The notes under the pieces: generated by a model
Told to the model about the DNA's origin: nothing
What the model saw: only the letters and a program-made list of their open reading frames with translations
Databases searched by the model: none
Source: a bacterium
Lineage (GTDB): Bacteria; Bacteroidota; Ignavibacteria; SZUA-365
DNA length: 64,000 bases
Assembly (NCBI GenBank): GCA_020444325.1
Contig: JAHLLD010000016.1
Span: forward strand, 62,001 to 126,000
Direction of reading: 5' to 3'
Made by a program: the position numbers and the translations under genes
Shown: in pieces, positions 9,311 to 64,000 of the stretch
Layout of the letters: the number at the start of each line of letters is the position of its first letter
How positions within the stretch are numbered: position 1 is the first letter of the stretch

Positions 9311-10297
9311 ATGAACCCACAGACTTTTATTGACGACCTGAAAAGCAGGGCACAGAAACTCGAGAAGCACATTGTGTATCCGGATGCGACGGATGAGCGC
9401 GCGATTGAGGCGGCACGGATCGTGACGGATGAGAAACTTGCGAAGATCACGCTGGTTGGCGTGGAAGCAGATATTCGCGCGAAAGCCGAAGAAAAGGGCA
9501 TCAGTCTCGACGGCATTGCCATCGTGGATCCCGCGCTGAGCGAGCATATCGAAGATTTCGCGAACACATACTACGAGCTGCGCAAGCACAAGGGCATGAC
9601 GCCGGAAGAGGCGCGGAAGACGGTGGAGCATCCGCTGTTTTTCGGTGATCTGATGGTGCGCAAAGGCATCGCCGACGGCAGTGTGTCGGGCAGTCTTTCG
9701 ACCACGGGTGATGTGATCAAGGCGGGGCTCCATTGCATCGGACTCAAGGAAGGGATCAAAACCGTTTCGAGTCTCTTCGTGATGAAATTCCCGGAGAAGA
9801 TTTATGCCTTCGCCGATTGCGCCGTCCTTCCTCTGCCGGATGCGCAGCAACTGGCTGATATCACCATCAGCACGGCCGACAATTTCCATGCACTCACCGA
9901 AGAAGAACCGCTGGTCGCCATGCTCAGCTTCTCTACCAAGGGAAGTGCGAAGCATGAGCTGATCGACAAGGTGCTCGAAGCGAAGCGCATCGTGCACGAA
10001 CGCAGGCCCGATCTGAAGGTGGACGGCGAGATGCAGTTCGACGCAGCCATCATTCCCGCCATTGGCAAGAAAAAGGCGCCGGAGAGTGAAATCGCAGGCA
10101 ACGCGAACGTCCTCGTCTTCCCCGATCTCCAGGCCGGCAACATCGGTTACAAAATTGCAGAGCGTCTCGGTGGCGCGGAAGCGCTTGGACCCATCGTCCA
10201 GGGCCTCGCGCGTCCCGCCTACGACCTCTCCCGCGGCTGCTCGGTGAACGACATCGTCGTGACCACCGTGTTTAACGCCGTCATGGGCGCGGTGTAA
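9311..10297 (+). CDS. pta: Phosphate acetyltransferase
   Basis: Transfers the acetyl group between CoA and phosphate (acetyl-CoA + Pi to acetyl phosphate + CoA), linking acetyl-CoA to acetate metabolism together with acetate kinase. The product is 328 residues, the size of the short single-domain Pta. Family blocks are visible: [18 protein letters not shown] at the N-terminus, [67 protein letters not shown], and [23 protein letters not shown] near the C-terminus. No ackA is adjacent in the window. The gene is flanked on both sides by dispersed repeats R1 and R2. Confidence 0.95.
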
Positions 10298-14275: not shown

Positions 14276-14495
14276 ATTGTTTTCCTCCAAGCGAGTGTAT
14301 GAGTTGTAACTATTAAATCAATGTCGTGTTGGGAGTACGGTTTTCACCGAATAAAAGAATATAGCGAGGGTGCGTTGCAGGCGCAAGAGGAAAGATGCTT
14401 CCGTGGAAACCAATTTTTGTTCTTTCCGAATCGCATTGCGCGAAATGCACACTCCGGATATATTCAATCTATCAGCCAGAAAGGAAAGGGACTTC

Positions 14496-28139: not shown

Positions 28140-28176
28140 CTTTTCACTCCTTCGCCGGAGGGCATGGGTACAACAA

Positions 28177-45438: not shown

Positions 45439-45626
45439 GAGATCGAAATCGAAATCGAAGTCGAAATCGAAATCGAAGTCGAAGTCGAAATCGATGTCGA
45501 AATCGAAATCGCCTGTCGCGGCGTAGTTGAGCGGAGCGAAACGAAGCCGGAAAATCGAAATCGAAATCGCCTGTCGCGGCGTAGTTGAGCGAAGCGAAAC
45601 GAAGCCGGAAAATCGAAATCGATTCT
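45439..45626. repeat. GAAATC hexanucleotide microsatellite with two 58-bp direct repeats
   Basis: About 12 tandem hexamers of GAAATC/GAAGTC (45439-45510), followed by a 58-bp unit containing GCCTGTCGCGGCGTAGTTGA and ACGAAGCCGGAAAATCG, repeated directly at 45511-45568 and 45569-45626. The flank CGCCTACGTCACGCTGCG (45409-45426) reappears reverse-complemented with one mismatch near 62.09 kb beside the other microsatellite. The 357-bp gap between the DUF4382 gene and rtcB is mainly this element plus ~130 bp of AT-richer leader sequence. Confidence 0.8.
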
Positions 45627-47433: not shown

Positions 47434-50400
47434 ATGAAACTCTGTCAGCTCACCCTCCACGCAGTACTGCTCCTTCTTGTACTCGGCAAGGCTCAGGCCG
47501 GTTCGTCACAGGATTCCGTCCTCATACACAACGCACCGGTGTATTTCACCGCGAACGCCGGACAGTGGGATACGCAGGTTCGGTTCGCCGCGCTCGGGAC
47601 GCAGAGTTCTGCGTGGCTGTGCGATGACGGGATTGTCCTTGTTCGATCCAGGAAGTCGCTGAAGTTTCCAGAAGAACTCGGCATCAGTACCAAACCGCGA
47701 GCGGATCAGGAGATGGTAAAACTCACTTTTCAGAACCCGTCGCCACGAATGCGGGTTGTCGCGGCGGATACGACCTTCGCTCGTACGCAGTTCTACCTTG
47801 GGCGAGATTCGGCGAACTGGCATGAATCGGTCTCCAATCACCGAGCCGTACGGTACCAGAATATTTGGGATGGTGTCGACATGGAATATACCGTTGGAGA
47901 GAACGGGGTCCTGCGACAGACTTTTTTTATTGCGCCTGGTACGAATTTGGCGCAAAACTGTCTAAAAGCAAGTGGTGCGGGAGCCGGTGAGATCCGTATC
48001 ATGCTGAACGAAGCGCTTGCAGGTGCCGCGGTCAATTCGATCTCAAACGGCGGTTTCAAATTCAAGGACACGCTCGCCCTGACGATGGAATACAATACCG
48101 GGTTGTATTTCGGTCAGGACCACGGTTGCCATGCAGTGACGCGCAACGGCGAGCTTGTACTGCTGGGATGGACTGGCGACCCGGCGTTACCACTTCGAAA
48201 CGCCCTTCAGGACACACTCTACGACAGAGGGGCTGTTTTCGTCATGCGATTCGACAGCACCGGAAGAGATTACCGGTATTGCACGTACATCAGGGGAGAT
48301 CCTCCTCTTGTACAGAACAGACTGCGATCACTGGCAGTCGATTCCGAAGGTGATGCCTATGGAGTCGTCGGTACGCAGGAGGGAATGCCGCTACTCTCGA
48401 ATACTTATCAGGGTTTTCCTGAGTACAGTCCGAATGTATTGGATACAACCTTCGCACCATACCTGCTCCGACTCACGCCGGATGGCATGCTCCGGGGTTC
48501 TACATATCTGGGGGGGCCGGGGCATTTCTGGGTGAAGCATCTCGTTGTCTCGGATCGCGGTGTTTTCGTTGCGGGCGAAAGCAATTACGCACCTCTCCGC
48601 ACCACGCCCAACGCGCTTCTCGGCTCGAACCGCGATGCCGCGAAACACGCCGTAGCCTGTGCGCGGCTTACGCACGGCCTGGATTCCCTCGTTTTTCTCT
48701 CGTACGTCATTGCTATGACGCAGGCCCCGCATGTTGCGGGCGGATTCACCAACTATGTGAGCGACATCAATCCTGACGGAGATGGCAATCTTTTGCTTGC
48801 ATTCAATATATCAGAATCAGCTAACGACACCGTGACCATCCCCGGTATCGGACGTGGTGAGTACGATGGCTACCTGGTTGCGAAGCTGTCAGCGGACGGT
48901 AAACGGATGCTGTTCGCCAGGCACATCGATTTTCCGGACATTTCCGGGGATCGTTGGGGTGGGGTATTTGGAGGCATTTTCTCGGTCAACATTCGCGCCG
49001 ATGGACAGATTGATGTTTTTGGTAACACCGTCCAGGATTCGCCGGAACCTCCCTCGCTTCCTCCCGGCTGGATCGATGATGCCGTGGTGTCGCCGCCTTC
49101 CGGTTCGGGTTCGGACCAGCTGAAATGGGCGATGCGCATGAGCGCCGCGGGAGAATTTCTCTATGGTGTGTACTATGGGCGTTCGCAAGGATTCAGCGCC
49201 ATGTCGAAGCTCACACGAAACAACACCTGTGGCGGATATTTGTGGACATGCCCGAACATGATCCGGCGAGATATTCTCCGGCCGGTGGATCCCGTCAGCA
49301 GTGTGGGGGACACTCTGCACGAACACTTCTTCCTCGACATCGGCGATGACCTGCGTGTGCGCACCGCTACGGGTTGGGACGCGGCGTATATCCCGAAATA
49401 TTTCGATTCTGACGGAACGCTGTCGACCGACGCACACGGATACTCCTATCTCCTGGGCCGTACGTACTGGAAGGAGAATTATCGGTACTTCAACTCGTGG
49501 AAACCGCTCTCCACAGCGGAACTGGGGTTTTTCTATCTCACGCGCTTTCGCTTTTACACGCCCTGCTGGCAGGTGGGATGCGAGATCGTAACGCCGGATA
49601 CCATTCATATCGAGCGCCGACGAGGGTATTATGCTCCCGACGAATTCACGGTAGGATATACGGTCACCAACTACAGCGCCGCGAAATCCGCGCGTATCGA
49701 TCATGCTGTGATCGAATTGCCTCCAGGTTTGCAACTTGTCTCAGGAATGCCGTCGCAGCAAATGTCACCGCCTGAGCTGGCTCCGGGAAATTCCGCCTAC
49801 TGTTCCTGGCGGGTGCGCATCACCGATCCAGGACTCTTGACAGATCACGGCCTCTCCGATACCGCACTGATCCGATGCCGCGTGTATTATGTCGATCCGG
49901 AATCGGGCCAGACCTGGCCGATGGGCGAGGAACTCTGCGAGAAGGATATCGTGGTCAATGTCTACGACGAGCCCGACCCGAATCTTGTCTGTACGGTTGC
50001 GGGTCCTGATTCGCTGTTCTGGCGCGGATCTGGGTATTCTCCGTTTCCGGGTGGCAATCCCGGACCTGTGACTTATCACGTCACCCTCACGAATCTGGAG
50101 AAGGATACGATCGATATCACGTCCTTTATCATGCGTGCCTTCGAGCATTGCCGGATTGTCGGTACTCCGCAGTTCCCAGGCCTGCGGCTTGCACCCGGCG
50201 CGACACACGCATTTGATGTCCTCGTCCTTGTCGATCCGGTGCTCGTTCCACGCACGATCCGCATCGAAACAGACGCTCTCGATATCTACAACGTTCCGGT
50301 CAGCAGCTGCGCGGCGGAGACGCGCGTGCCGGGTGTGCGGGATCTGCCATGTGCGGTCACGGGTCCTGCCCGGATCCGGTGGTATCCCAAATCCGGCCAG

Positions 50401-52422
50401 GCGTACCCTGGTCTGCTCACTCTGACGCTGCATCTGGACAGTCCGCTCGACACTGTGCGTGCAGGTGTGTGTACCTGGATTGATACATCATCGGCTCCGC
50501 ATGTATCCCTTGCACCGGGTGATTCCGCGAGTCGTCCGCCGGTCGATATCGCAGAAGGAGGGACATACGAACCATACTGGCGTTTCGTGCTCGCTCGTCC
50601 GCCCTCGTCGAACGCGTCCGATACCATCCGTTTCACCTATGAAGCAGACGGCGTGCAGTACGCGTGCGTGTATGTGATCACCATCGATGTGATCCTGATC
50701 GAGAAAAGCGTGATCTGTGATCTCATGGGAACGGATTCCCTCTCCATCGCACAGATCCAAGCGCGAGAACAGGCGCAGCTGCATTACGCGCTCACCAACA
50801 CCGGTACGATAACTGTGGATGTGGACCGGTACGAGCTCGCCATCGTTCCTGCTGCGGGATTCCCGGAAGCAGGTCTTATCAGTCTCGATCCGCTCGTGCG
50901 TGCGGGTGGGAGCATTGATCCGGGCGATGATATCACGATGGACTGGAACCTCCATGCGCTGATTCTGCGTACATCACGCACGGCGGAGTGTACCGTCACC
51001 GCGTACGATGCGAACGACAGCGTGCTTGCCGTGTGCACGCACACGATCGCGCTTGAAGGACTCGATGGGCTGATCTGCACGATGACCGCGACAGACTCGG
51101 TGCACTTCAATCGCGCGGAACTGCGATATGAGCCTGAAGAGATTACGGCAACATTTTCACTCGAGAACCTTCTCGACACCGAAGAAACGAACATCGAAGC
51201 GGTTATAGATCTCACGCAGTCGCCGCGGTTCATGCTCGATCCTTCTGAAACCGCGAGCAAAGCCATCTCCGTCCTCGACAGTCACTCCACTGCGAATCTC
51301 ACCTGGATTCTCATCCCACAGCCCGCAACTACCGCCGAGGATCAGGAAATCATCGTGCGCTACCGTTCCGATGAGCAGAGCGAGTGGAAAGAGTGCAGCG
51401 TGATTATTCACATCGAAGTCTGGCCGGAAGAGATGGGCATTGCCTGTGCAACCGGTGGACACGATTCCCTCTACGCAGATCCGTACTACGAACGTTTCAT
51501 CCCTAATCCGCTATTCGTGTCGTACACGGTGACGAATACCGGGACAATCGCTCTCACGGGCTGTGAGGCTTCGATTGTCCTTCCTCCCGAATTCATCCTT
51601 GACGGATCGGACAGCACGCAGCTATTCACATCGCCGGAGTTTGCAAATCAGCAGGGGGGCCCTGTCCCTCCCGGCACACTTCTCCCGAACGCATCCTGCA
51701 CGCGGTGGTGGATGATCACACCGTCCACTCAGCTGACGGCAGTAGGAACAGTGGACATTCGCTGGCAGTGGCGCAGTGATCAGCAGGGAAGTGGTGATGG
51801 GTGCAGTTCGTCCATCGAAGTCGTCTTCGATTCCCCGGGCAGTATCGTGCTTTCGCCGAAGCACCTGTACTTCGAAGCCGAGCGCGGCGGACCAATCCCC
51901 GCTGCGCAGAACGTCCTCCTGTGGACGGGCGGGGGAAACTCCATGCCCTGGAGCATGCAGCCTTCCGAAACCTGGCTGAATGCAAATCCACTCTCCGGCA
52001 GCCAGGAAGCCACGGTCGCTGTGCAGCCGAACAGCACGATGCTCGATGTGGGTGGACACGCAGCCGCACTGAACGTGTCCGCAACTCCATCGAATCGCAG
52101 CATCGCAGTGACATACGTGATTCGAAAGAGCACCGGTGTTGGCGATCCGTCTCTACCCACCGCGTTAACCCTCGAAGCATGGCCGCAGCCGGTCACGATC
52201 GGTGGTATGCTGCAGGTGGCCATTGCGGGTGCGGGAGATGAGAGCTATCGTCTGTCCCTGTACGACATGCTCGGACGCGAACGACTTTCCCGCACGCTAG
52301 AAGCTGGCGAACAGTGGAGGATATCTGTGTCCGGCGCACAGTTCACTCCGGGAAGCTACATACTTCGCGTCACAGCTGCGGACGGTGCGCAGGTGTCGAG
52401 GCTTATATCGGTGATCAGATGA
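47434..52422 (+). CDS. Giant T9SS secreted protein A (DUF7948-like N-terminus, propeller, six Ig-like modules, BACON-like domain)
   Basis: A 1662-residue exported protein with AGGAGG before the ATG and signal peptide MKLCQLTLHAVLLLLVLGKAQAG. Residues ~30-200 match the DUF7948-type domain that precedes SBBP repeats (VYFTANAGQWDTQVRFAA ... TQFYLGRDSANWHESVSNHR ... AVRYQNIWDGVDMEYTV). A propeller-like SBBP region follows. From ~710 come six ~110-residue modules, each starting with a cysteine and a D-S pair (CEIVTPDTIHIERRRGYYAP, CTVAGPDSLFWRGSGYSPFP, CATGGHDSLYADPYYERFIP). Next is a BACON-like domain (LYFEAERGGPIPAAQNVLLW, WSMQPSETWLNANPLSG) and a type-A sorting domain (LEAWPQPVTIGGMLQVAI, LSLYDMLGRERLSRTL, GSYILRVTAADG). 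It is a paralogue of the gene at 56785, nearly identical over the C-terminal third. Confidence 0.87.
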   Translation: MKLCQLTLHAVLLLLVLGKAQAGSSQDSVLIHNAPVYFTANAGQWDTQVRFAALGTQSSAWLCDDGIVLVRSRKSLKFPEELGISTKPRADQEMVKLTFQNPSPRMRVVAADTTFARTQFYLGRDSANWHESVSNHRAVRYQNIWDGVDMEYTVGENGVLRQTFFIAPGTNLAQNCLKASGAGAGEIRIMLNEALAGAAVNSISNGGFKFKDTLALTMEYNTGLYFGQDHGCHAVTRNGELVLLGWTGDPALPLRNALQDTLYDRGAVFVMRFDSTGRDYRYCTYIRGDPPLVQNRLRSLAVDSEGDAYGVVGTQEGMPLLSNTYQGFPEYSPNVLDTTFAPYLLRLTPDGMLRGSTYLGGPGHFWVKHLVVSDRGVFVAGESNYAPLRTTPNALLGSNRDAAKHAVACARLTHGLDSLVFLSYVIAMTQAPHVAGGFTNYVSDINPDGDGNLLLAFNISESANDTVTIPGIGRGEYDGYLVAKLSADGKRMLFARHIDFPDISGDRWGGVFGGIFSVNIRADGQIDVFGNTVQDSPEPPSLPPGWIDDAVVSPPSGSGSDQLKWAMRMSAAGEFLYGVYYGRSQGFSAMSKLTRNNTCGGYLWTCPNMIRRDILRPVDPVSSVGDTLHEHFFLDIGDDLRVRTATGWDAAYIPKYFDSDGTLSTDAHGYSYLLGRTYWKENYRYFNSWKPLSTAELGFFYLTRFRFYTPCWQVGCEIVTPDTIHIERRRGYYAPDEFTVGYTVTNYSAAKSARIDHAVIELPPGLQLVSGMPSQQMSPPELAPGNSAYCSWRVRITDPGLLTDHGLSDTALIRCRVYYVDPESGQTWPMGEELCEKDIVVNVYDEPDPNLVCTVAGPDSLFWRGSGYSPFPGGNPGPVTYHVTLTNLEKDTIDITSFIMRAFEHCRIVGTPQFPGLRLAPGATHAFDVLVLVDPVLVPRTIRIETDALDIYNVPVSSCAAETRVPGVRDLPCAVTGPARIRWYPKSGQAYPGLLTLTLHLDSPLDTVRAGVCTWIDTSSAPHVSLAPGDSASRPPVDIAEGGTYEPYWRFVLARPPSSNASDTIRFTYEADGVQYACVYVITIDVILIEKSVICDLMGTDSLSIAQIQAREQAQLHYALTNTGTITVDVDRYELAIVPAAGFPEAGLISLDPLVRAGGSIDPGDDITMDWNLHALILRTSRTAECTVTAYDANDSVLAVCTHTIALEGLDGLICTMTATDSVHFNRAELRYEPEEITATFSLENLLDTEETNIEAVIDLTQSPRFMLDPSETASKAISVLDSHSTANLTWILIPQPATTAEDQEIIVRYRSDEQSEWKECSVIIHIEVWPEEMGIACATGGHDSLYADPYYERFIPNPLFVSYTVTNTGTIALTGCEASIVLPPEFILDGSDSTQLFTSPEFANQQGGPVPPGTLLPNASCTRWWMITPSTQLTAVGTVDIRWQWRSDQQGSGDGCSSSIEVVFDSPGSIVLSPKHLYFEAERGGPIPAAQNVLLWTGGGNSMPWSMQPSETWLNANPLSGSQEATVAVQPNSTMLDVGGHAAALNVSATPSNRSIAVTYVIRKSTGVGDPSLPTALTLEAWPQPVTIGGMLQVAIAGAGDESYRLSLYDMLGRERLSRTLEAGEQWRISVSGAQFTPGSYILRVTAADGAQVSRLISVIR

Positions 52423-52423
52423 G

Positions 52424-52509
52424 ATCAATGGGAACGCCGATTTTCACGGGTATTACTGATTTTCGCGGAAGAGGGGGGGGGGGGGCGGATTTGCTGATTT
52501 CCGTGTTAA
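52424..52509. repeat. Dispersed palindromic repeat, copy R9, with a 13-base G tract
   Basis: ATCAATGGGAACGCCGATTT begins 1 bp after the stop of gene A. The centre of the unit is replaced by a run of 13 G (52473-52485). The remnant of the right arm ends CTGATTTCCGTGTTAACC. From 52510 to 52600 there is no recognisable feature. Confidence 0.65.
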
Positions 52510-52599
52510 CCAGCGTGATTGCGCTGGTGTTGGCAGATACGAAGGCGCCTGCCGACAACGACTCCGCGCAGCGGAGGCGAAAACCACCCACTCCCTTAT

Positions 52600-53145
52600 C
52601 GCAGCACATGCAGCATTATGAGTACTATTCCCGAAAAAAAGGTTATTAAATGCTTGCATTGTGCGGTTTTTTTTTTTATCTTTCGGTATCGGTTACGGCA
52701 ATCCGAAAATATGAGGAACGGTCTCCCTGAAGATCTGCATGGGGGACACCGTGAATTCTACGCCACTGCGGCGATACAGCGATTGTTCTACCAATGAAGA
52801 GGTGAGGTTTGGAGACTGGGGATGAAATGTAGCACCGGGTGCAAAGGGAGCGACGCGAAGAGTCGGCATACGGGGCAAAGCTGGGACAGAGGACACGCGG
52901 CGAGGGAAGTAGGTTCGCCTGTTTCTGATACCGCAGAGTTATCCGCAACAACATCGTAACCACGAAACCAACGTATGATCGGTACATGGACACCGCTTGG
53001 TCGCTTGCGTACCTGGCTGTTCTCCCTGTATCGCCGAGCGCAATAATCAACAGCCGACCTCACGGACCTGAGTCTCCCGCAAAGAAGCATCAGGTGCCAC
53101 AAGGCCGGCAAGGTCCGTAGACCACCAGTAATTACAGGAATTCCA
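52600..53145. repeat. Long conserved leader of gene B (copy 1 of ~545-bp block)
   Basis: This block is almost identical to 62342-62886, upstream of B'; the offset is 9741-9742 bp with few substitutions and a one-base indel. It starts near ATGAGTACTATTCCCG and includes a T11 run (52667-52677; interrupted in copy 2), CCCTGAAGATCTGCATGGGG and many dyads. Minus-strand ORFs exist in both copies, but no protein family was recognised. It most likely represents a promoter/5'-leader conserved by recent duplication or gene conversion. Confidence 0.75.
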
Positions 53146-56100
53146 ATGAAGAATTCAACTTTATCGCATGCCGGTGAGAGGCCGTGCGTGCATGTATTGA
53201 CCGTCACTGCTGCGTGCATACTATTCCGACGCATCGGATCAACACTTTTCAGCATCGCATGCATCCTGGCATTGCTCGTCACGAGCACCCCCGTCACACT
53301 GAACGCGCAGACGGAATGGAAAGACAGGTATATCTCGATTGCGAGGGAGAATCAAACAAATCCCACCGTGGCCCAACCAACGCAAACTGCGCAGACGGTG
53401 ACTGTGTGGGAGGATCGACGTAACGACGCTACCGGTACCGATATTTACATTCAAAGCATTGACAATTCGACGGGGGTACCGCAGTGGGTTGCTGCACCTG
53501 TCAATGCCGATGCGGTGAAGGATCGTTTCGATGGCATGGCAGTGTGCCGGGCAGCCAATGATCAGCGTAATCCACGTGCGGCGTATGACGGGATGAACGG
53601 CGTGATTGTCGTATGGGAGGATTATCGAAACGACCCCACGCTGCAGGTTGCCGAAATCTGGGCGCAACGTATTGACCTGTTGACGGGATTGCCCGATCCG
53701 GCCTGGCCGCTGGACGGGATTCCCGTGTGCCAGACAGGTTATCACGCGGAACGCCCGAGAATCGCAGGCACTATGGACGGCGCGTTCATTACCTGGATCG
53801 ACCATCGCAACAACCTGTGGTCGCCGGTGAATCGTGACGTGTACGTTCAGTACATTAAAAGCGCATCCGCAACGTTCCCACCACCTCCGACGAATTGGAT
53901 CGCGAACGGTATTTCCGTCTCCGCCAATCCTCAGCACGACCAGATCAACCCCGAACTCGATGTCGATAATATCGTCACTCTGGACATGCTGGGTTTGATG
54001 ACACAGGGAGTGGTGATCACTTATCAGGATGACCGGTATCTCGGGGCGACCAGCGGAATGCCGGTCTGGTCGGTATTCGTCAACCGCATAAGCGCGGATG
54101 GCAATCAGCTGTATACATTTGGTGGTCTCGGTGGTGATGTTGCCGTTGATGCGTCAACCGGCGAACATCAGCGTCTTCCACGAGTTGTCACAACCGGCAA
54201 ACAACCGTACGTGACCGATCGCAGGGCAATTGTGGTCTGGGAAGACGATGTCGGTGGGGGAGCGAGCAGTACGGACATCTACTTTCAGGCGATCAGCAAT
54301 CTCGGCTTTTCTCCAAACAATCAACCGGGACAGCCGTACTGGCAGAACAGTACTCCGGTATGCACGGCACCGGGCGTGCAGACCGGTCCGATTCCAGTAC
54401 TTTTCGAGTACTTCAATCAAATCTCGCAGACGTACATACCGTACGTCACTGTCGGTTGGGAGGATTACCGTGACTATGCCGTCAACGGGATCGATCTTTA
54501 CGGCGGGCTGATTGATGCCATCACTCCTGCCGTCGTAAATCCAGGTGCCATGAACGGAGATATCATCAGCGCCCTGCCGTATGATCAGACTCAGCTTTCG
54601 ATGGACAATATCGGGTTGTCAAGCTCGTACGACAACACGGTGTTTGTCTGGAAGCATTTCAATGGCGTCGAAGCAAACATCCACTATCAGAAGATTTACA
54701 TCCCTGGCTGGATGCTGCTTCAGCCGCTGCATGGATTTCCGGTCACTGAGGCGAAGGCCGATCAAGTCCTTCCCCAGGCGAACAAGGAGGTCTTTGTCTG
54801 GCAGGATGGTCGGCGTGATCCGATTCCTGGTGACAATCAGGATGACGAGAACATCTACGCGCAGACACCCGGCGAGTGCACCGGCCCCACGGGCATGAAG
54901 TGGCGTGACAAATTCGCATACTGGACATATGGACACGATGCGCAGAATTACCGGATGGCCAGTGACACCACGGATGGAACAACCTACGTCGTCTGGGATG
55001 AAGAGCGCTATCCCTTTGGGCAGCCCGGGGATGCAGCACGCATCGTCTTCATCCAGAAATTCGACAAGGACGGTGTTCCACGGTGGAGCAATAATGGCGT
55101 GGCGCTGAGTATCTACAACGTACCAGGGGTGCAACTATTTTCACTGAACGCGTCACTCCCGGACGTATGTATAGACGGAGCTGGAGGTGCCCGTGTCGTC
55201 TGGCAGCAGCAGCCGCTAAATGGAAACCCGACGCAAGTTGTTGTTCCTGTGCATATTAACGCCTTAGCGACGATAGATTACGCTAGCGGCGGTTCTTGGC
55301 TTTATTATGGCTCTCCCATAATCGAACCACGTATTACGGCAATCAACGACGTTAATCACCATGCTGTTGTTGCAGGCATAGTTGATTATGGAGGTGGGCG
55401 CAGAGAGGCTCATTGTGGACTCTGGACAGTTAAAAACAACGTGGTGACTACCCCAATTCAAGCCACAGGATGGTTCCCAAATCAACCAGGGTGGCATACC
55501 GATCTGAATGTCATGTATGATGGTGTGAAGTACGTGTATATCTTGACAAATGATGTCCAGAATAGCAATATCGATATCACATGTGTTGATCGATTTACTA
55601 ACATATCTTATCAGAACAATGTGGTCGCAGGCTACAACGCGTTCGGTGGTCATGATCTCAACCTCGACAACAACGATATTGCTACGGGGAGCGCTGCGCT
55701 TGTTGCGTATTCGTACCAGCAAGCACCCGGAGCACCATTTGATGTATACTTCCGACATTGTCGCCTATGGACTTTGTCCGCACCGGTACAACTGACAAAC
55801 AATGCCGTTCCCACGGACAGCAAATATCCGGCAATTGCGTCGGACAATGTCTTCAACATTGCTGAAATGGGTGCACTGATCGCGTGGGATACAAAGTACA
55901 CAGTGCCCGGCACCTCCTGGATTTATCACAAGGTCGAATCCAACCGCGTGGCTTTTCCTGGCCCGACAACAGTGTTCCCGGCCAATTTTCAGATTGCCGC
56001 AGGTTTGCCAGGCCCATCGTATCCTGATATCACCCGCGTCATAAACCAATCCCCTGGAAACTACTCACCTCGTGGTGTGGTCGTATGGGAAGGTGGCGGA

Positions 56101-56676
56101 GAGAGTTCTCCCTGTAGCCTTGCGCGTCCAGTGGAAATCTATGCGCAGTACATGGATTATGATCCAGCAAGTGGAAATATCGGAGCGCAATGGCCACAGC
56201 CGGAGATGGTTGGTCCTGGACCGGGAAACTATATGCAGACAGGTCCTACCGTGAAACAGTCCATCCCATCAACGGTTGCCGTGTTCTGGGATGATACTCA
56301 GACCGGGAACAATGGTATTATGGGCACGCGAATGGATGTCGGAAGTACTGTCATTGATTGGGCGAAGCGAACCCGGGATGAGGCCCTGCCAATACAACCT
56401 GGTCAGCTGACGATCATCGATATCTGGCCTCAGCCCGCACATTCCGGATGTGAAGTCGCTATTTCGCTGCATGCAGATGTGGATGCGACGGTCAGCTTCG
56501 AACTCTATGACCTGCTAGGCCGACGAATCGCGGTCCTGTATAGTGGGTTCATGGAGAGGTCCGAACTTACGGTCAGATTCAGTCCATCAGCGTATGATCT
56601 GAATACCGGAACCTACTTGCTGCGTGCTCGCAGTGAAGAGGGACAGACGAGTCGTACGATTACCGTCGTCCGTTAA
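53146..56676 (+). CDS. Giant T9SS secreted protein B (repeated W-E-D-x-R-N propeller motifs)
   Basis: A 1176-residue exported protein with AGGA 6 bases before the ATG. The signal region is long, with a first hydrophobic stretch VHVLTVTAACILF and the main one FSIACILALLVTSTPVTLNAQ. The mature part is built of blades marked by W-[EQI]-D-x-R-[NR] followed by D-[IL]-Y-x-Q: TVTVWEDRRNDATGTDIYIQ, VIVVWEDYRNDPTLQVAEIW, GAFITWIDHRNN, VTVGWEDYRDYAVNGIDLYG, VFVWQDGRRDPI. This is a common secreted beta-propeller-like repeat. A degenerate type-A sorting domain closes it (DIWPQPAHSGCEVAISLHAD, FELYDLLGRRIAVLYSG, GTYLLRARSEEGQTS). The stretch ~55.2-55.7 kb is more AT-rich than the rest. A strong terminator follows. 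Confidence 0.85.
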   Translation: MKNSTLSHAGERPCVHVLTVTAACILFRRIGSTLFSIACILALLVTSTPVTLNAQTEWKDRYISIARENQTNPTVAQPTQTAQTVTVWEDRRNDATGTDIYIQSIDNSTGVPQWVAAPVNADAVKDRFDGMAVCRAANDQRNPRAAYDGMNGVIVVWEDYRNDPTLQVAEIWAQRIDLLTGLPDPAWPLDGIPVCQTGYHAERPRIAGTMDGAFITWIDHRNNLWSPVNRDVYVQYIKSASATFPPPPTNWIANGISVSANPQHDQINPELDVDNIVTLDMLGLMTQGVVITYQDDRYLGATSGMPVWSVFVNRISADGNQLYTFGGLGGDVAVDASTGEHQRLPRVVTTGKQPYVTDRRAIVVWEDDVGGGASSTDIYFQAISNLGFSPNNQPGQPYWQNSTPVCTAPGVQTGPIPVLFEYFNQISQTYIPYVTVGWEDYRDYAVNGIDLYGGLIDAITPAVVNPGAMNGDIISALPYDQTQLSMDNIGLSSSYDNTVFVWKHFNGVEANIHYQKIYIPGWMLLQPLHGFPVTEAKADQVLPQANKEVFVWQDGRRDPIPGDNQDDENIYAQTPGECTGPTGMKWRDKFAYWTYGHDAQNYRMASDTTDGTTYVVWDEERYPFGQPGDAARIVFIQKFDKDGVPRWSNNGVALSIYNVPGVQLFSLNASLPDVCIDGAGGARVVWQQQPLNGNPTQVVVPVHINALATIDYASGGSWLYYGSPIIEPRITAINDVNHHAVVAGIVDYGGGRREAHCGLWTVKNNVVTTPIQATGWFPNQPGWHTDLNVMYDGVKYVYILTNDVQNSNIDITCVDRFTNISYQNNVVAGYNAFGGHDLNLDNNDIATGSAALVAYSYQQAPGAPFDVYFRHCRLWTLSAPVQLTNNAVPTDSKYPAIASDNVFNIAEMGALIAWDTKYTVPGTSWIYHKVESNRVAFPGPTTVFPANFQIAAGLPGPSYPDITRVINQSPGNYSPRGVVVWEGGGESSPCSLARPVEIYAQYMDYDPASGNIGAQWPQPEMVGPGPGNYMQTGPTVKQSIPSTVAVFWDDTQTGNNGIMGTRMDVGSTVIDWAKRTRDEALPIQPGQLTIIDIWPQPAHSGCEVAISLHADVDATVSFELYDLLGRRIAVLYSGFMERSELTVRFSPSAYDLNTGTYLLRARSEEGQTSRTITVVR

Positions 56677-56711
56677 TTATGTTGTTGCCTCGTACAACAC
56701 CACACGACGAT

Positions 56712-56754
56712 ATGGAGAGGTGGCGCGTGCCACCTCTCCATTGAATATTTTTTT
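56712..56754 (+). terminator. Intrinsic terminator after gene B
   Basis: Perfect 13-bp stem ATGGAGAGGTGGC / GCCACCTCTCCAT with a GCGT loop (56712-56741), followed by TGAATATTTTTTTA. It lies 36 bp after the stop of gene B and 31 bp before the next ATG. Confidence 0.93.
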
Positions 56755-56784
56755 AAATCATCCTGCACAGCATGCGGCACCGCC

Positions 56785-59700
56785 ATGAGATTTCCGAACA
56801 ACTTTTCTGCATCATTGCTTTTTTTACTCCTCATCCTGACCGCAACCTCATACGCAGGTGATCCACCCATGCGGCGCGATGTTCTCAGCAGGATTCCACT
56901 GCAGTTCATCGAGAACGGTGGCCAGTGGGATGCCCCCGTGGAATTCGGTGTGATTCGCGGTATGGAAAAAGCAGCGTTCAGCCGGGAAGGTGTGACGATT
57001 TTTCGTCCCCAGCGTCGCTCGGTGGCACTGCCTTCGTATTCTGAGGGTGGGATGTCAAATGGCATGGATGCTGAGATATGGGGAAAAGTTGAGCGGCTTG
57101 GGCTGCATTTCATACGGCCGTCTGTCAAACTTCGGGTGACGGGTTCGGGACTGACCGACACGAAGACGAACTTCTACATCGGCAGCGATTCCTCGCGATG
57201 GAGTGCGGGACTCGATTCCTTCACCGGTGTACGCTACGCAGATGTGTGGGAGGGAATCGATGTCAGCTTCACGGAGAAGGGTGGTAAACTCGTGCAGCGC
57301 ATTGACATCGGAGCTGGTGAGGATCTTGCATCGGTAGCTTTCAGTGCCTCCGGCTTTGCACATGGGGAAGCGTTGCAGAGCGCTCGATGGTTTGATGATA
57401 ACGGACACGCAGTCCCGGCGGGAGGCGGATTCGAACAGTATGGTGACACCATTCGGCTGCGACCTTACCGCAATTTCCTCGAGCGGCGCATGGTGATTGA
57501 GACGGAGTTTAATACGTTACTGGGGGGGAGTGGAATCGAAGAGCTCCATGGCTACGATATTGATGAGAAAGGGAGAATCGTCGTGGCGATGTTGACTACG
57601 TCGACCGATCTGCCTGTGATAAATGCCTCGCAGGAGATGCACAGAGGTGGTAGCCTCCCTCTGGAGACGGACTACTATATAGCCAGTTTTGATGCCGAAA
57701 TGCAGATATGTAATTGGTCTACCTACCTTGGCGGCAGCGAGGATGAAGCCTTTCATGCGTATGTAGATTTATTACACGGAGACCTCCGCGGATGTATTAC
57801 ACCTCACCTTGAAAAGCTGGAAACATCGGGATCCAACACATATATGCTTGGGACCACGGAATCCTATGATTTTCCGATTTCATCGAATGCTATGCAGAAA
57901 AACCGTCAACCTCCAACGATGGGCGAGACGACAGCAACTACGTTGACAATGTTTGATGATACAGGTCAGCTTGTTCAATCAACCTGGGTTGGCGGACCTG
58001 CAATGTTCAGTCCATTCAGTCTTGATGCAAGCAGTCAGGGCGATGTCCTTGTCGGAGGTATTACCAGCGGGGAGCAGTGGTTTGTCCAACCAGGGGCTCT
58101 ACTGGATAGCAATACAGTTGACCAACCATATGTAGACTCCATAATGACGATCTTGAGTTTCGTCAAGTTCACGAAGGATTTGGACAGCGTGCAAGCGGGC
58201 ACGTACTTGTTCCCTTTCCCGGGAGTAAAAACGGCCGGGACATCAGGATTGATGACGGAGATAACCGAGCAGGGTGAACTCGTGATTGCGATTCAGCTCG
58301 TGGACAGTACAACGCATCCTCCGGCGATTGCATCCTGGCAATCCAGTGGGGGTAAGGAGGATCTATTGGTGTGCAAGGTCAATGCGTCGTTCACCGATTA
58401 TGTCTTCACTACATGGCTTGGGGGGAAGGTTATCGCAGGATCGGATCTCGCCGTAACGAAGGATGGTGATGTGATTGTTGCGGGTATCGACTTTACTGGA
58501 GATCTCGTTATGCGACATCCACTTTCCTCCACATACAGTACAGCAAAAGGAGTACAAAGTCATTTTGTAGCTAAAATTCCTGGTCGGGGAGGAGTTGCTG
58601 ATTTCGTGACATATCTCCCCTGGTTGGAGAAATCGGCGAATTTGTCGTTTGGCAGCAGTGTAGATGTACTCGATTGTGGAGATATACTCGTTTTTGGTAT
58701 TGGCATAACCGACAGTATTCTGTTTCAGAATCCCGATGATACCGTATCAAGTGTTTTCCAAAATGGTCAGACACCCTACCTTCTGGCACTTGATCCGACG
58801 GGACAAAATATCCGTTACAGTAGCTACTGGCATTTTGACGGGTCGTATCCGAATCAGCAAACGCTAGGATTTGGCGTGTCGGGTGGTCGCCTGGTGAGTG
58901 CCCCGGGCAGCCCGACGTCGCTACATACAGAGGTTCACAATGGACAGTTGTATCTCGGTGGTTACATCCCCAGTATCTACAAAGACAGCTTGACCACCTT
59001 CCACGAGTTTCAACCACTCTATGGCGGGGGAGAGCAGGATGTGGCGCTGATTCGCACGCGAGCGCCGGGCTGTGCGCTGCTGGCATGTTCAGTTGAGATG
59101 GAGGATACGGTACGCATCAGCCGCACGCCGCCGTGGATTTCACCGGAACGCCTGCTCGTGGACGTTGAAGTGGCGAATGTGGATCCGGTGCGCAGCGCGG
59201 GTGAGGTGGAATGTGTGCTGACGCTGCCTCCAGGACTCGTGCTCGATCCTTCAACACAGTCCCTTCGCCAAACGCTTTCCGGAACGATCGCACCGGGAAG
59301 GACTGAACATTTCACATGGACACTGCGCGTGGATACATCCGCACTCGTGCTCGCTGCGGACAGCGGTCTGTGGATCGATGCGGTGACGTATTACAAGGTC
59401 GGTGATAATCCCCGGGAAGGGGCGCCTGCAGCCCTGCCCTGTGAGCATTACCTGCGCTTCGAACAGGTCGAGCATCTCGAACCGCTGCTGGCCTGCAACG
59501 TGGAGATGCCGGATTCGATTCTCGTCAATGGCACCGGCGACAACTATTTCCCACAGCCTTTCACGGTACGGTTTACGACGGAGAACACAGGCACGGAAGC
59601 AGTGACGTTCGCACGTTTCGGTCTGTATCCCGGTGGAGACATTGGTGCGATCCCGGTACCGGCGAATCAAAAGTATCAGCCGGGTGTGACGCTGCCTCCG

Positions 59701-61908
59701 GGCGAGACGCACGCGCTTACCTGGCAGGTACGCACCGAGCGCAGGGCAGAGGACCGCTGGATGCGCGTGCTCGTGGCGGGAGAGGACGCGATCGGCAACC
59801 CGATCACCTTCTGCGAGCAAGAGGTGTTTGTGCCCGGACTCTTGTCACCGCGCTGTCAACCTGCGTCGACGGTTGAGATACGAGTCGATCCTTCGACGGG
59901 CGCGTATACCCCGGATCCGTTCGAGGTCGGCATGACAATGCAGCAAGTGCTCGATACCACGCTTCTCGACTGCGTCGGGGTGATTGACCTTTCTGCCTGT
60001 CGTTATGTCGGACTCGCCAGTGGCGAGACCCTGCAGCGTCCGGCCGTGCGTCTTTCGGCCGACGAAAGCGATACCCTGCGCTGGCAATTGTCGCTGTCGT
60101 CCATTCCGTCTGTCACTGCGTACGACACCGTCGTCTACCAGACGTATTCCGCTGGTGAGCTGCGCAGCAGTTGCCTGCAGGTGTTTCGTATCGTGACGCT
60201 GTCGGAAAACGTCTCCTGTGCCATCACGGCCGGGGATTCACTCACGCAGCAGGACCTGCTCTCCCGTACTCCCGTTCCACTCTCGGGTATCCTGCGCAAC
60301 ATCGGTACTGTCCCGGTGAGCGTGGACCATCTCAGGCTTTCGATACCCGCCGGGAGCGGGGTGTATGCCGACGAAGCGCTCATGCAGACGGGCAGAACCC
60401 TGGGACCGAATGAGGACCTTGTCATCGACTGGACGCTGCACGCGCGTATTCTCCGAAACAGCCGCGACGTTTTGCTTGAAGTATCCGCTTTCGATGATAC
60501 CGACAGTTTGCTCACGAGCTGTATGCACAATCTGCATATTGCGGGTGGACCCGAACTGCAGTGCATGCTGTCCGCTGCAGATACGGTACGATTCGACCGG
60601 CAGGGTCCCGCGTATGATCCGGATCCGTGTCCTGTTACCGTAGACCTTCGCAACCTGCTCGATGAAGAAGAACGCAGCGTTGACGCGCACATTGACCTTT
60701 CATCTGCAACACGCTTTACGCTGGCAAGCGGAGAAACCACGGAGAAAACCATCACGGTCATCGACAGCCAGGCAACGGGGACGGTAACCTGGCTTCTCAT
60801 CCCGCAGCCTGCATCTACCGCCGAGGATCAGGAGGTCATCGTGCGCTATCGATCCGACGAGCAGACGGAGTGGAAAGAGTGCAGTGTGATTATTCACATC
60901 GAAGCCTGGCCGGAGGAAACGGGCACAGACTGTGCAACAGGGGGACACGATTCCCTTTACGCAGATCCGTACTACGAACGTTTCATCCCTGATCCGCTCT
61001 TTGTGTCGTACACCGTAACGAATACCGGGACAATCGCTCTCACGGGCTGTGAGGCTTCGATTATCCTTCCTCCCGAGTTCGTCCTTGCCGGATCGGACAG
61101 TACGCAGCTGTTCACATCACCGGAGTTTGCAAATCAGCAGGGCGGACCCGTTTCACCCGGAACACTTCTTCCGAACGCATCCTGCACACGGTGGTGGATG
61201 ATCACGCCGTCGAATCAGCTTACGGCAGCCGGACCTGTTAACGTAACGTGGCAATGGCGTTCCGATCAGCAGGGAAGTAGTGATGGATGCAGTTCGTCCA
61301 TCGAAGTCGTCTTCGATTCCCCGGGCAGTGTCGTGCTCTCCCCGAAGCACCTGTACTTCGAAGCCGAACGCGGCGGACCGCTTCCCGCAGCGCAGAGCGT
61401 GCAGTTGTGGACGGGCGGAGGATTGTCCATGCCCTGGAGCATGCAGCCCACTGAAACCTGGTTGAATGCAAATCCACTCTCCGGCAGCCAGGAAGCCACG
61501 GTCGTTGTGCAGCCGAACAGCACGATGCTTGATGTCGGTGGACACGGAGCCGCACTGAACGTATCCGCAACCCCGTCGAATCGCAGCATCGCAGTGACAT
61601 ACGTGATCCGGAAGAGCACCGGTGTTGACGATCCGTCGCTACCTGCCGCTTTAACCCTTGAAGCGTGGCCGCAACCGGTCGCAATTGGTGGCATGCTGCA
61701 GGTGGCCATTCCCGGTGCGGGAGATGAGAGCTATCGCCTGTCGCTTTACGACATGCTTGGACGCGAACGCCTCTCCCGCACGCTCGAAGCCGGTGGACAG
61801 TGGGGCATAGCTGTGTCCGGCACACAGTTCACTCCGGGAAGCTACATCCTTCGCGTCACAGCTGCGGACGGTGCGCAGGTGTCGAAGCTTATATCGGTGA
61901 TCAGGTAG
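56785..61908 (+). CDS. Giant T9SS secreted protein A' (paralogue of A)
   Basis: A 1707-residue exported protein with the same layout as A: signal peptide (MRFPNNFSASLLFLLLILTATSYAG), DUF7948-like domain (LQFIENGGQWDAPVEFGVIR ... TNFYIGSDSSRWSAGLDSFT ... GVRYADVWEGIDVSF), an SBBP/propeller region, six cysteine-started Ig-like modules (CSVEMEDTVRISRTPPWISP, CNVEMPDSILVNGTGDNYFP, CAITAGDSLTQQDLLSRTPV, CMLSAADTVRFDRQGPAYDP, CATGGHDSLYADPYYERFIP), a BACON-like domain and a type-A sorting domain. The C-terminal ~530 residues are almost the same as in A at protein and DNA level, while the N-terminal two thirds differ strongly. The 57.5-59.0 kb part is visibly more AT-rich. No good ribosome binding site is seen; 108 bp separate it from B. 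Confidence 0.87.
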   Translation: MRFPNNFSASLLFLLLILTATSYAGDPPMRRDVLSRIPLQFIENGGQWDAPVEFGVIRGMEKAAFSREGVTIFRPQRRSVALPSYSEGGMSNGMDAEIWGKVERLGLHFIRPSVKLRVTGSGLTDTKTNFYIGSDSSRWSAGLDSFTGVRYADVWEGIDVSFTEKGGKLVQRIDIGAGEDLASVAFSASGFAHGEALQSARWFDDNGHAVPAGGGFEQYGDTIRLRPYRNFLERRMVIETEFNTLLGGSGIEELHGYDIDEKGRIVVAMLTTSTDLPVINASQEMHRGGSLPLETDYYIASFDAEMQICNWSTYLGGSEDEAFHAYVDLLHGDLRGCITPHLEKLETSGSNTYMLGTTESYDFPISSNAMQKNRQPPTMGETTATTLTMFDDTGQLVQSTWVGGPAMFSPFSLDASSQGDVLVGGITSGEQWFVQPGALLDSNTVDQPYVDSIMTILSFVKFTKDLDSVQAGTYLFPFPGVKTAGTSGLMTEITEQGELVIAIQLVDSTTHPPAIASWQSSGGKEDLLVCKVNASFTDYVFTTWLGGKVIAGSDLAVTKDGDVIVAGIDFTGDLVMRHPLSSTYSTAKGVQSHFVAKIPGRGGVADFVTYLPWLEKSANLSFGSSVDVLDCGDILVFGIGITDSILFQNPDDTVSSVFQNGQTPYLLALDPTGQNIRYSSYWHFDGSYPNQQTLGFGVSGGRLVSAPGSPTSLHTEVHNGQLYLGGYIPSIYKDSLTTFHEFQPLYGGGEQDVALIRTRAPGCALLACSVEMEDTVRISRTPPWISPERLLVDVEVANVDPVRSAGEVECVLTLPPGLVLDPSTQSLRQTLSGTIAPGRTEHFTWTLRVDTSALVLAADSGLWIDAVTYYKVGDNPREGAPAALPCEHYLRFEQVEHLEPLLACNVEMPDSILVNGTGDNYFPQPFTVRFTTENTGTEAVTFARFGLYPGGDIGAIPVPANQKYQPGVTLPPGETHALTWQVRTERRAEDRWMRVLVAGEDAIGNPITFCEQEVFVPGLLSPRCQPASTVEIRVDPSTGAYTPDPFEVGMTMQQVLDTTLLDCVGVIDLSACRYVGLASGETLQRPAVRLSADESDTLRWQLSLSSIPSVTAYDTVVYQTYSAGELRSSCLQVFRIVTLSENVSCAITAGDSLTQQDLLSRTPVPLSGILRNIGTVPVSVDHLRLSIPAGSGVYADEALMQTGRTLGPNEDLVIDWTLHARILRNSRDVLLEVSAFDDTDSLLTSCMHNLHIAGGPELQCMLSAADTVRFDRQGPAYDPDPCPVTVDLRNLLDEEERSVDAHIDLSSATRFTLASGETTEKTITVIDSQATGTVTWLLIPQPASTAEDQEVIVRYRSDEQTEWKECSVIIHIEAWPEETGTDCATGGHDSLYADPYYERFIPDPLFVSYTVTNTGTIALTGCEASIILPPEFVLAGSDSTQLFTSPEFANQQGGPVSPGTLLPNASCTRWWMITPSNQLTAAGPVNVTWQWRSDQQGSSDGCSSSIEVVFDSPGSVVLSPKHLYFEAERGGPLPAAQSVQLWTGGGLSMPWSMQPTETWLNANPLSGSQEATVVVQPNSTMLDVGGHGAALNVSATPSNRSIAVTYVIRKSTGVDDPSLPAALTLEAWPQPVAIGGMLQVAIPGAGDESYRLSLYDMLGRERLSRTLEAGGQWGIAVSGTQFTPGSYILRVTAADGAQVSKLISVIR
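60522..60538. repeat. TATGCA-N5-TGCATA palindrome, copy 7, inside gene A'
   Basis: TATGCA-CAATC-TGCATA with perfect 6-bp arms, encoding CMHNLHI in the fourth-fifth module junction of A'. The corresponding position in gene A reads differently, so it is not part of the conserved paralogue sequence. Confidence 0.5.
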
Positions 61909-61923
61909 CATCTCGAGACACCA

Positions 61924-62025
61924 ATCAATGGGAACACCCGCCTTCGTCCTGTAATACAGGACTTCGGCGGGCACGCGGATTTTCACGGGTCGTAAGGATT
62001 TTCACGGAAAAGGGGGGAGGTCGGA
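61924..62025. repeat. Dispersed palindromic repeat, copy R10, interrupted by a 35-base hairpin
   Basis: Left end ATCAATGGGAACAC, then an extra hairpin from 61937 to 61971 (CCCGCC...GGCGGG with nested TCCTGTA/TACAGGA and TTCG opposite TTCG), then the repeat continues GCGGATTTTCACGGGTCGTA and ends in AAAAGGGGGGAGG. It lies 15 bp after the stop of A', mirroring R9 after A. Confidence 0.7.
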
Positions 62026-62112
62026 TCTGCTGAAATTTGTGGCACTCGCTCTTCCGGCTTCGTTTAGCTCTCGCGTGCCCGCCGTAGTTGCGCGCAGCGT
62101 CACGTAGGCGGG

Positions 62113-62209
62113 CCTTCGCTCTCGCCCTCGCCCTCGCCTTCGCCCTCGCCTTCGCTCTCGCCTTCGCCCTCGAATTCGCTCTCGCCATCGCCTTCGCCTT
62201 CGCCTTCGC
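62113..62209. repeat. CTCGCC/TTCGCC hexanucleotide microsatellite
   Basis: About 16 tandem hexamers of [CT]TCGC[CT] type. It is flanked on the right by CTTCCGGCTTCGCTTCGC, the reverse complement (with one mismatch) of the sequence flanking the GAAATC array near 45.6 kb, and on the left by GCGCAGCGTCACGTAGGCGG, matching the other flank there. Confidence 0.8.
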
Positions 62210-62341
62210 ACTTCCGGCTTCGCTTCGCCCGCACCATACAAGCATTGGTGCATGATATTAGCGATAGCTACGGCGGGACGAGACGCCGCGACATGCGATC
62301 TCCTGCAGCACAGCGTAGTCGACACCCACACACTCCCTAAT

Positions 62342-62886
62342 TGCAGCACGTGCAGCAGTATGAGTACTATTCCCGAAAAAAAGGTTTTAAAATATTTGCA
62401 TTGTGCGGTTTTGATTTTTATCTTTTGGTATCGGTGACAGCAATCCGAAAATATGAGGAACGGTCTCCCTGAAAATCTGCATGGGGACACCGTGAATTCT
62501 ACGCCACTGCGGCGATACAGCGATTGTTCTACCAATGAAGAGGTGAGGTTTGGAGACTGGGGATGAAATGTAGCACCGGGTGCAAAGGGAGCGACGCGAA
62601 GAGTCGGCATACGGGGCAAAGCTGGGACAGAGGACACGCGGCGAGGGAAGTAGGTTCGCCTGTTTCTGATACCGCAGAGTTATCCGCAACAACATCGTAA
62701 CCACGAAACCAACGTATGATCGGTACATGGACACCGCTTGGTCGCTTGCGTACCTGGCTGTTCTCCCTGTATCGCCGAGCGCAATAATCAACAGCCGACC
62801 TCACGGACCTGAGTCTCCCGCAAAGAAGCATCAGGTGCCACAAGGCCGGCAAGGTCCGTAGACCACCAGTAATTACAGGAATTCCA
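62342..62886. repeat. Long conserved leader of gene B' (copy 2 of ~545-bp block)
   Basis: Near-identical to 52600-53145. Identity continues into the first ~60 codons of B' and stops abruptly after ...TEWKD. The rest of the 978-bp gap between A' and B' holds repeat R10, the hexamer array and about 130 bp (62210-62341) with nothing recognised. Confidence 0.75.
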
Positions 62887-64000
62887 ATGAAGAATTCAAC
62901 TTCTTCGCATGCCGGTGCGAGGCCGTGCATGCATGTATTGACCGTCACTGCTGCGTGCAGACTATTCCGACGCATCGGATCAACCATTTTCGGCATCGCC
63001 TGCATCCTGGCACTGCTCGTCACGAGCACCCCCGTGACACTGAACGCGCAGACGGAATGGAAAGACCGTCCTATTGTCCATAAGAAGGAAAATCAGCTTT
63101 CACCAGCGATCGCCAGACCAGCCCGACTGGATTACACCATTGTTGTCTGGGAGGATTTCAGGAATGAGGGTGACTATGACATCTACGTACAGAAAATAGA
63201 CAATGTTACAGGTCTCCCATTGTGGATGGAGCCAGATGGTATCGCCGTATGCACTGAGGAGGGAGATCAACGCTATCCCCGGGCAGCATACGATTCACTC
63301 GGTGGCGTAATCATTACATGGGTGGATGAGAGATCTGGTTACAAAAATGTTTATGCACAACGAATCTCCGCGACAACTGGTGAGGTGGATGCGAACTGGC
63401 CGTCAGACGGTGCTGTAGTCTGTGAGCAAGATGCCAACTGTGAACATGTAAGGATTGCAGGCACAGCTGATGGTGCATTTATAACTTGGCTTGACTACCG
63501 TGATTACTCAAGCGGCGTCAACCGGAAGGTGTACGCCCAGTATATGCTAAGCTCAACTGCGACCTATCCACAATCGACTAACTGGGTACAGGATGGGATC
63601 GAAGTAGCTGACAATATTGATGAGGGAGATCAAGCGAACCCGGAAATTGCTAGAGAATATGATTGGGACAGTGGAAAGGCTAATTGTGTAGTCTCGTTTC
63701 AGAAGTACGTAGATGTCAACGGTGATATGTATTGGAACGTCTATGCGGCAAAACTTGATGCGACCGGAGACAAAGAGTATGGAGGTGCAGATATTGCGCT
63801 AGCTACAAATGAATCTGATCAGCTTTACCCGAAAATTGTCTGCAGTGGTGAAGATGTAAGTAGAGATGAACCACGCGCGATCGTTGTATGGCAAGACTCA
63901 CGGGAGGATCATTCCAGCCAGCCAAAACTGTATGACATCTATTCACGTACTATCGATGCAGACGGAAATATTCCAGGAAACACTGGAGATATTGTATGCG
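62887..64000 (+). CDS. Giant secreted protein B' (paralogue of B; 3' end beyond window)
   Basis: The reading frame is open from the ATG at 62887 to the end of the window (371 codons, no stop). The first ~60 residues are nearly identical to B (MKNSTSSHAGARPCMHVLTV ... LLVTSTPVTLNAQTEWKDR), including the signal peptide. Then the sequence diverges to related but different blades: IVVWEDFRNEGDYDIYVQKI, VIITWVDERSGYKNVYAQRI, AFITWLDYRDYSSG, AIVVWQDSREDHSSQPKLYD. From about 63.06 kb onward the DNA is clearly more AT-rich than the leader. It carries the same W-[EV]-D-x-R motif set as B and should end in a T9SS domain beyond the window (inference). Confidence 0.87.
   Translation, partial: MKNSTSSHAGARPCMHVLTVTAACRLFRRIGSTIFGIACILALLVTSTPVTLNAQTEWKDRPIVHKKENQLSPAIARPARLDYTIVVWEDFRNEGDYDIYVQKIDNVTGLPLWMEPDGIAVCTEEGDQRYPRAAYDSLGGVIITWVDERSGYKNVYAQRISATTGEVDANWPSDGAVVCEQDANCEHVRIAGTADGAFITWLDYRDYSSGVNRKVYAQYMLSSTATYPQSTNWVQDGIEVADNIDEGDQANPEIAREYDWDSGKANCVVSFQKYVDVNGDMYWNVYAAKLDATGDKEYGGADIALATNESDQLYPKIVCSGEDVSRDEPRAIVVWQDSREDHSSQPKLYDIYSRTIDADGNIPGNTGDIVC

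Follow-up and report, generated by a model that had tools for sequence, protein, structure and literature searches.

The window, that is, the whole stretch of 64,000 nucleotides analysed here, corresponds to positions 62001–126000 of contig C16 of a 4.65-Mb genome assembled in 25 contigs. Its right-hand part contains two types of genes, A and B, arranged in alternation, together with the following associated features:

47434–52422, plus strand: A0, an unpaired A protein of 1662 amino acids
51247–52418, plus strand: homogenised C-terminal third of A0, 88% identical at the DNA level to A1 and A2
52553–53145, plus strand: leader 1, the shared region upstream of B1
53052–53129, plus strand: leader element directly preceding the B1 start, conserved and foldable; B genes of G009 and G011 (another genus) have a similar element upstream
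53146–56676, plus strand: B1, 1176 amino acids, predicted propeller with a long signal peptide and a weak T9SS C-terminal domain
56785–61908, plus strand: A1, the predicted cognate partner of B1, 1707 amino acids
60733–61904, plus strand: homogenised C-terminal third of A1, including a 378-nt stretch identical to A2 (A1 residues 1493–1619)
62308–62886, plus strand: leader 2, the shared region upstream of B2
from 62887 past the window edge (64000) to window-equivalent position 66330, plus strand: B2, 1147 amino acids, completed on contig C16
window-equivalent 66396–71393, outside the window on contig C16: A2, the predicted partner of B2

The period of about 9.35–9.75 kb proposed for this array by the first-pass annotation agrees with start-to-start distances of 9351 nt (A0 to A1) and 9741 nt (B1 to B2), and its suggestion that the array extends past the window is confirmed by the rest of contig C16, which completes B2 and adds A2. 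The gene order on this contig is A0, leader-B1-A1, leader-B2-A2, an MNT/HepT-like pair and the contig end, while the upstream neighbour of A0 is a divergent rtcB gene, with no B there. The pair directly 3' of A2, comprising a nucleotidyltransferase (PF01909) and a HepT-like protein (PF01934) at window-equivalent positions of about 71474–72104 (L004, about 9475–10105), is likely a toxin-antitoxin module. The contig ends 844 nt past A2 in a simple repeat, cutting off the far end of the array in the source genome. Of the two findings that together would have refuted the first-pass annotation, only one was obtained: past B2 and A2 the contig shows no additional unit, but in relatives the genes are paired. 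A third unit, leader-B3-A3, is located on the minus strand of contig C1. The DNA repeats at 51247–52418/60733–61904 (88%) and 52566–53325/62308–63066 (95.8%) are far beyond chance.

Several other features were noted in the window. The minus-strand region 23109–28355 encodes a 1748-aa protein with a WD40-type propeller and HYDIN/ASH Ig-like domains, and the T9SS protein encoded at 14370–18278 combines IgGFc-binding-type with laminin-G-like domains. A dispersed repeat, GGCGTAGTTGAGCGAAGCGAAACGAAGCC, often found beside simple hexamer-like tracts, occurs at positions 45520–45606 of the window, near rtcB before A0, as well as at C3:216875, C3:231124, C2:510681 and C3:648. It was detected at seven places in the genome, including one just upstream of the A copy on contig C3; the reversed control gave none.

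Proteins of family A carry DUF7948 (PF25778) in all seven members, weak matches to BACON_2 and CARDB-type domains and a T9SS sorting domain. In A0 the order is signal peptide, DUF7948, predicted propeller region, beta-sandwich stack, BACON-like domain and T9SS type A C-terminal domain. For residues 21–1190 of A1, the AlphaFold2 model (pLDDT 73, pTM 0.53) has integrin alpha ectodomains, CylK and sialidases as its top PDB fold matches (best E 5e-18, with low global TM-scores), and A is modelled as a predicted N-terminal propeller head on a beta-sandwich stalk. The model of B (pLDDT 72, pTM 0.63) consists almost wholly of beta structure, and most of its fold matches are multi-propeller proteins and sialidase-like propellers; both fold models are of moderate quality (pLDDT 72–73, pTM 0.53–0.63), with low global TM-scores. 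PDB sequence searches with the A and B profiles gave no match at E 0.01. The signal-peptide region of B1 ends with LNAQTEWKD. The assignment of these proteins to the type IX secretion system, made earlier from the sequence, holds for A0 and A1, which score 26.2 and 28.9 bits with TIGR04183 (cut-off 23); B1 alone falls just below with 20.8 bits, all 11 B relatives match the same sorting-domain model, and the source genome encodes SprA (SprA_N 171.6 bits, cut-off 27).

The spacing of the genes indicates which B belongs with which A. The gap between B and the downstream A is 65–108 nt (108 nt for B1-A1 and 65 nt for B2-A2), while that between A and the next B is 723–978 nt and holds the shared leader. 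Genes of type B are present in nine of the 100 genomes searched, including the source genome, all belonging to the same family or order. In relatives, A lies directly 3' of B on the same strand in 13 of 13 B genes with an assembled 3' side; two B genes at contig ends and one fragment (G004 C310) are outside this count. The loci with B followed by A are as follows:

G002: C299
G003: C285
G004: C354, C343 and C225
G007: C119
G008: two distant loci
G009: C126, twice (convergent)
G011: C178 and C85
G013: C438

The short B-A gap, the long leader-bearing A-B gap and the invariable succession of B and A define the unit as leader-B-A, and this order is conserved across the family and order. On sequence grounds, B1 is the partner of A1 and B2 that of A2; A0-B1 and A1-B2 are not cognate. 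The earlier proposal that the products work as pairs gains strength from the co-inheritance of B and A, but in the register leader-B-A rather than A-B. A often occurs without B, both in the source genome (A0, the C3 copy and two genes on C17) and in relatives, and therefore need not act as part of a pair.

One genome per species was sampled, and most of the relatives' genomes are fragmented assemblies. The complete genome of a congener (G001) has no B, and at matching search strength it contains only broken 3' ends of A. These isolated ends, lacking the remainder of the gene, are located at L177:10376–10978 and L178:8794–9486, one of them beside an apparent nucleotidyltransferase-like reading frame. 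Scanning of contigs for B-like genes yielded mostly matches of 22–32% to the general propeller repeat, plus one close genome. A remote B-like gene (L094), with no A directly after it, was not counted as B. No match of the A and B searches was located near rtcB in relatives where both were found, so that the position of A0 does not look conserved.

The co-divergence of the two genes was evaluated from protein identities in units with both genes long enough, using the part of A corresponding to A1 residues 41–1250. The identity of B correlated with that of the N-terminal and middle parts of the downstream A (r = 0.87, Mantel p = 0.0005, eight units). With two units added, the correlation was 0.87 for B with the downstream A, 0.47 for B with the upstream A, the pairing assumed by the first-pass annotation, and 0.41 for swapped partners; swapping B1/A1 with B3/A3 costs no correlation because both are of one type. 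The second unit (U2) resembles a unit of G011 (B 55%, A 47%) and the third (U3) a unit of G002 (B 62%, A 57%). Cassette types are patchily common to several genera: B3/A3 is shared with G002 and G009, B2/A2 with G011, and A0 with G004; the nearest relatives of the N-terminal and middle part of A0 are A genes of G004 and G011. These comparisons of protein sequences demonstrate that B has been passed on jointly with the N-terminal and middle parts of A, in separate types of old origin.

A different history is recorded in the C-terminal third of A. In this part (A1 residues 1381–1615) the five main copies of the source genome are about 89–100% identical, while most within-genome pairs are 20–50% identical in the N-terminal and middle parts. 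In the C-terminal tree A0, A1, A2, A3 and the C3 copy form one clade with a support of 99.6; the same clade was rejected for the N-terminal (residues 41–250, AU p = 8.6e-5) and middle (residues 751–1250, AU p = 4e-83) parts, where the interiors of the source-genome paralogues cluster with genes of other genera. A1 and A2 of G008 follow the same pattern (one clade rejected with p = 0.0035 and 4.8e-5, C-terminal support 100). The trees were of the quick type, and the groups for the AU tests were chosen after the identities had been seen. Synonymous divergence (NG86, 100-codon blocks) is saturated along most of A and, in source-genome pairs, falls at about codons 1250–1340 to mostly 0–0.5; for A0 the values in the C-terminal third are mostly 0.3–0.5, compared with saturation upstream. 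The boundary was found in a second genus as well, since two pairs of G008 show dS of 0.03–0.9 past the same position (0.46–0.93 for A1-A2 alone). The second of these pairs, a tandem of A-type genes that belongs to a different subfamily and has no B (G008, L168:4111–14002), contains a C-terminal-third block with dS of 0.03 at the same place. Identical tracts of 378 nt (A1-A2), 318 and 189 nt (A2-C3 copy) and 279 nt (C17 pair) are placed differently in different pairs, which implies several conversion events. A2 and the C3 copy are 87–100% identical on either side of the propeller region (residues 218–719) and 46–59% identical inside it, and the final approximately 45 residues of A2 follow the C17 type, while the preceding sequence follows A1.

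At the other end of the cassette, leaders 1, 2 and 3 are identical over 403–459 nt of non-coding DNA. Leader 1 is identical to the other two copies over 403–420 nt, and 459 nt (62427–62885) are the same in leader 2 and its counterpart on contig C1, leader 3, ending one base before the start codon; the signal-peptide coding sequence of B3 has diverged although the leaders of U2 and U3 are identical. The untranslated leader of B1 is roughly 450 nt long, with a TTG/TATCTTTCG motif upstream that we presume, by eye and by comparison with Bacteroidota promoters in general, to be promoter-like. The leaders of three B genes within G011 are 82–90% alike; between genera only blocks survive, the best being about 90 nt before the start codon. 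Four sequences of the leader element, folded singly, gave the same hairpins (z from -1.8 to -3.4). The whole 471-nt leader folds no better than shuffles (z 0.59), only its last approximately 110 nt do. Although 94% of cells pair in the element alignment, too few pairs vary and there is no covariation to speak of. Neither the leader nor the element had a match in Rfam. A leader-like word in G027 proved unrelated when read.

The near-identical C-terminal thirds, saturated interiors and identical leaders indicate that both ends are homogenised, while the interiors are old cognate cassettes. Together, the trees, the dS profile and the identical tracts demonstrate, at the level of sequence comparison, that gene conversion between copies of one genome has repeatedly overwritten the leader as well as the C-terminal third of A. 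The near-identity of the C-terminal third had been recorded by the first-pass annotation, which missed its cause.

Alternatively, new interiors could enter resident loci by horizontal transfer via the conserved ends, so that diversity comes from between cells and not from conversion among resident copies. The patchy sharing of cassette types across genera is consistent with this, and surface genes of Porphyromonas gingivalis have been described as exchanging alleles likewise (PMC5266723). However, one and the same genome has several types at different loci, and intragenomic exchange is still required for its ends to become homogenised; we consider this explanation, taken as a replacement for conversion, rather unlikely, while both processes may operate.

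If a single unit had recently been duplicated in tandem, and selection had then driven the interiors apart quickly while the ends stayed as they were, this would account for the tandem period of 9.4–9.7 kb and the near-identical ends. Such a scenario is nevertheless very improbable, because the AU tests contradict it: genes of other genera surround the interiors in the trees, synonymous sites of the interiors are saturated, which makes them far older than the ends, and for each of A0, A2 and A3 other genomes contain interior relatives that are closer than A1. Purifying selection on a shared C-terminal anchor of beta-sandwich, BACON-like and T9SS sorting domains, without recombination, could be invoked because these domains are presumably functional and their sequence is conserved between genera (about 50%). 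Such selection requires equal dS in the C-terminal and middle parts, but dS also collapses at the boundary, and protein-level constraint cannot give exact tracts of up to 378 nt and a non-coding leader identical over 403–459 nt, which makes this explanation extremely unlikely. The original model of A-B pairs with A as a stalk and B as a head, suggested by the alternation of A and B and the many stalk-like domains of A, is hardly credible, since register and co-divergence favour B with the downstream A, A has its own predicted propeller before the beta-sandwich domains, and B is also modelled as propellers.

The locus is thus probably part of a small multigene family of leader-B-A cassettes encoding secreted, likely surface-attached binding proteins, with gene-converted ends and old cognate interiors. 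B and A would share one transcript that starts at a promoter in the leader; their products would pass through Sec and then the type IX system and would form a cognate complex in which A contributes a beta-sandwich stalk topped by a propeller head and B contributes further propellers; both may function in binding. The shared ends could keep expression and anchoring uniform and provide homology for duplicating, deleting and exchanging whole cassettes, leading to a changing repertoire of binding heads. Turnover is consistent with such a repertoire, as exemplified by the complete congener genome described above. A more far-reaching version is put forward only tentatively, with more doubt than confidence: active recombination would swap, duplicate and lose matched B-A head cassettes between an expression leader and an anchor, both of them shared, so that both partners diversify with cognate matching kept, and the foldable element would set the expression of the pair.

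Most known families of variable surface proteins consist of single genes and come from pathogens. Homogenisation of both ends is seen here in T9SS-bearing bacteria of at least two genera and involves a gene pair with co-diverging members, so that joint diversification of paired surface proteins can be put to the test at this locus. The near-identical ends also account for the tendency of such loci to break assemblies.

Kgp, RgpA and HagA of P. gingivalis are also large T9SS proteins with near-identical repeated modules and allelic exchange, whose repeats break assemblies (PMC5266723). Their gingipain and cleaved-adhesin modules are, however, unrelated in sequence to A and B, and no cleaved-adhesin, DUF2436 or C25 protease domains were found in Pfam scans of A and B. 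In Kgp, RgpA and HagA the adhesins are shared and the protease is unique, whereas here the anchor end is shared, and the propellers and stalk are unique. A has the same content (PF25778, TIGR04183 and a weak BACON_2) as T9SS type A proteins with DUF7948 and BACON-like domains, of which no described member was found in a co-inherited two-gene unit with a propeller-only partner. The modelled layout of A, with several beta-sandwich domains lined up after a propeller, resembles that of integrin alpha; with about 10% sequence identity, a low global TM-score and no PDB sequence match at E 0.01, this is a fold resemblance and a layout analogy, homology not being shown. No description of such paired T9SS units was found in the limited, open-access literature searched.

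The closest parallel is provided by the babA/babB and homA/homB adhesins of Helicobacter pylori, in which gene conversion between paralogues of one genome keeps the 3' segments evolving in concert and the upstream segments diverge; chimeras arise in the 5' region too (PMC2795765, PMC4552749). The likeness lies in the clustering of within-genome paralogues in one segment and not in another, as seen in the AU tests, trees and dS profile; neither A nor B matched a Helicobacter outer-membrane family in Pfam/NCBIfam (A: DUF7948, T9SS; B: propeller/T9SS). The bab and hom genes are single genes of outer-membrane proteins, whereas the cassettes described here encode T9SS substrates, are homogenised at the 5' end over a long non-coding leader, and showed no phase-variable repeat in the coding start. 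The pattern is a known one, bab/hom-like conversion, from which the present loci depart by a two-gene cassette with matched partners and a long shared leader.
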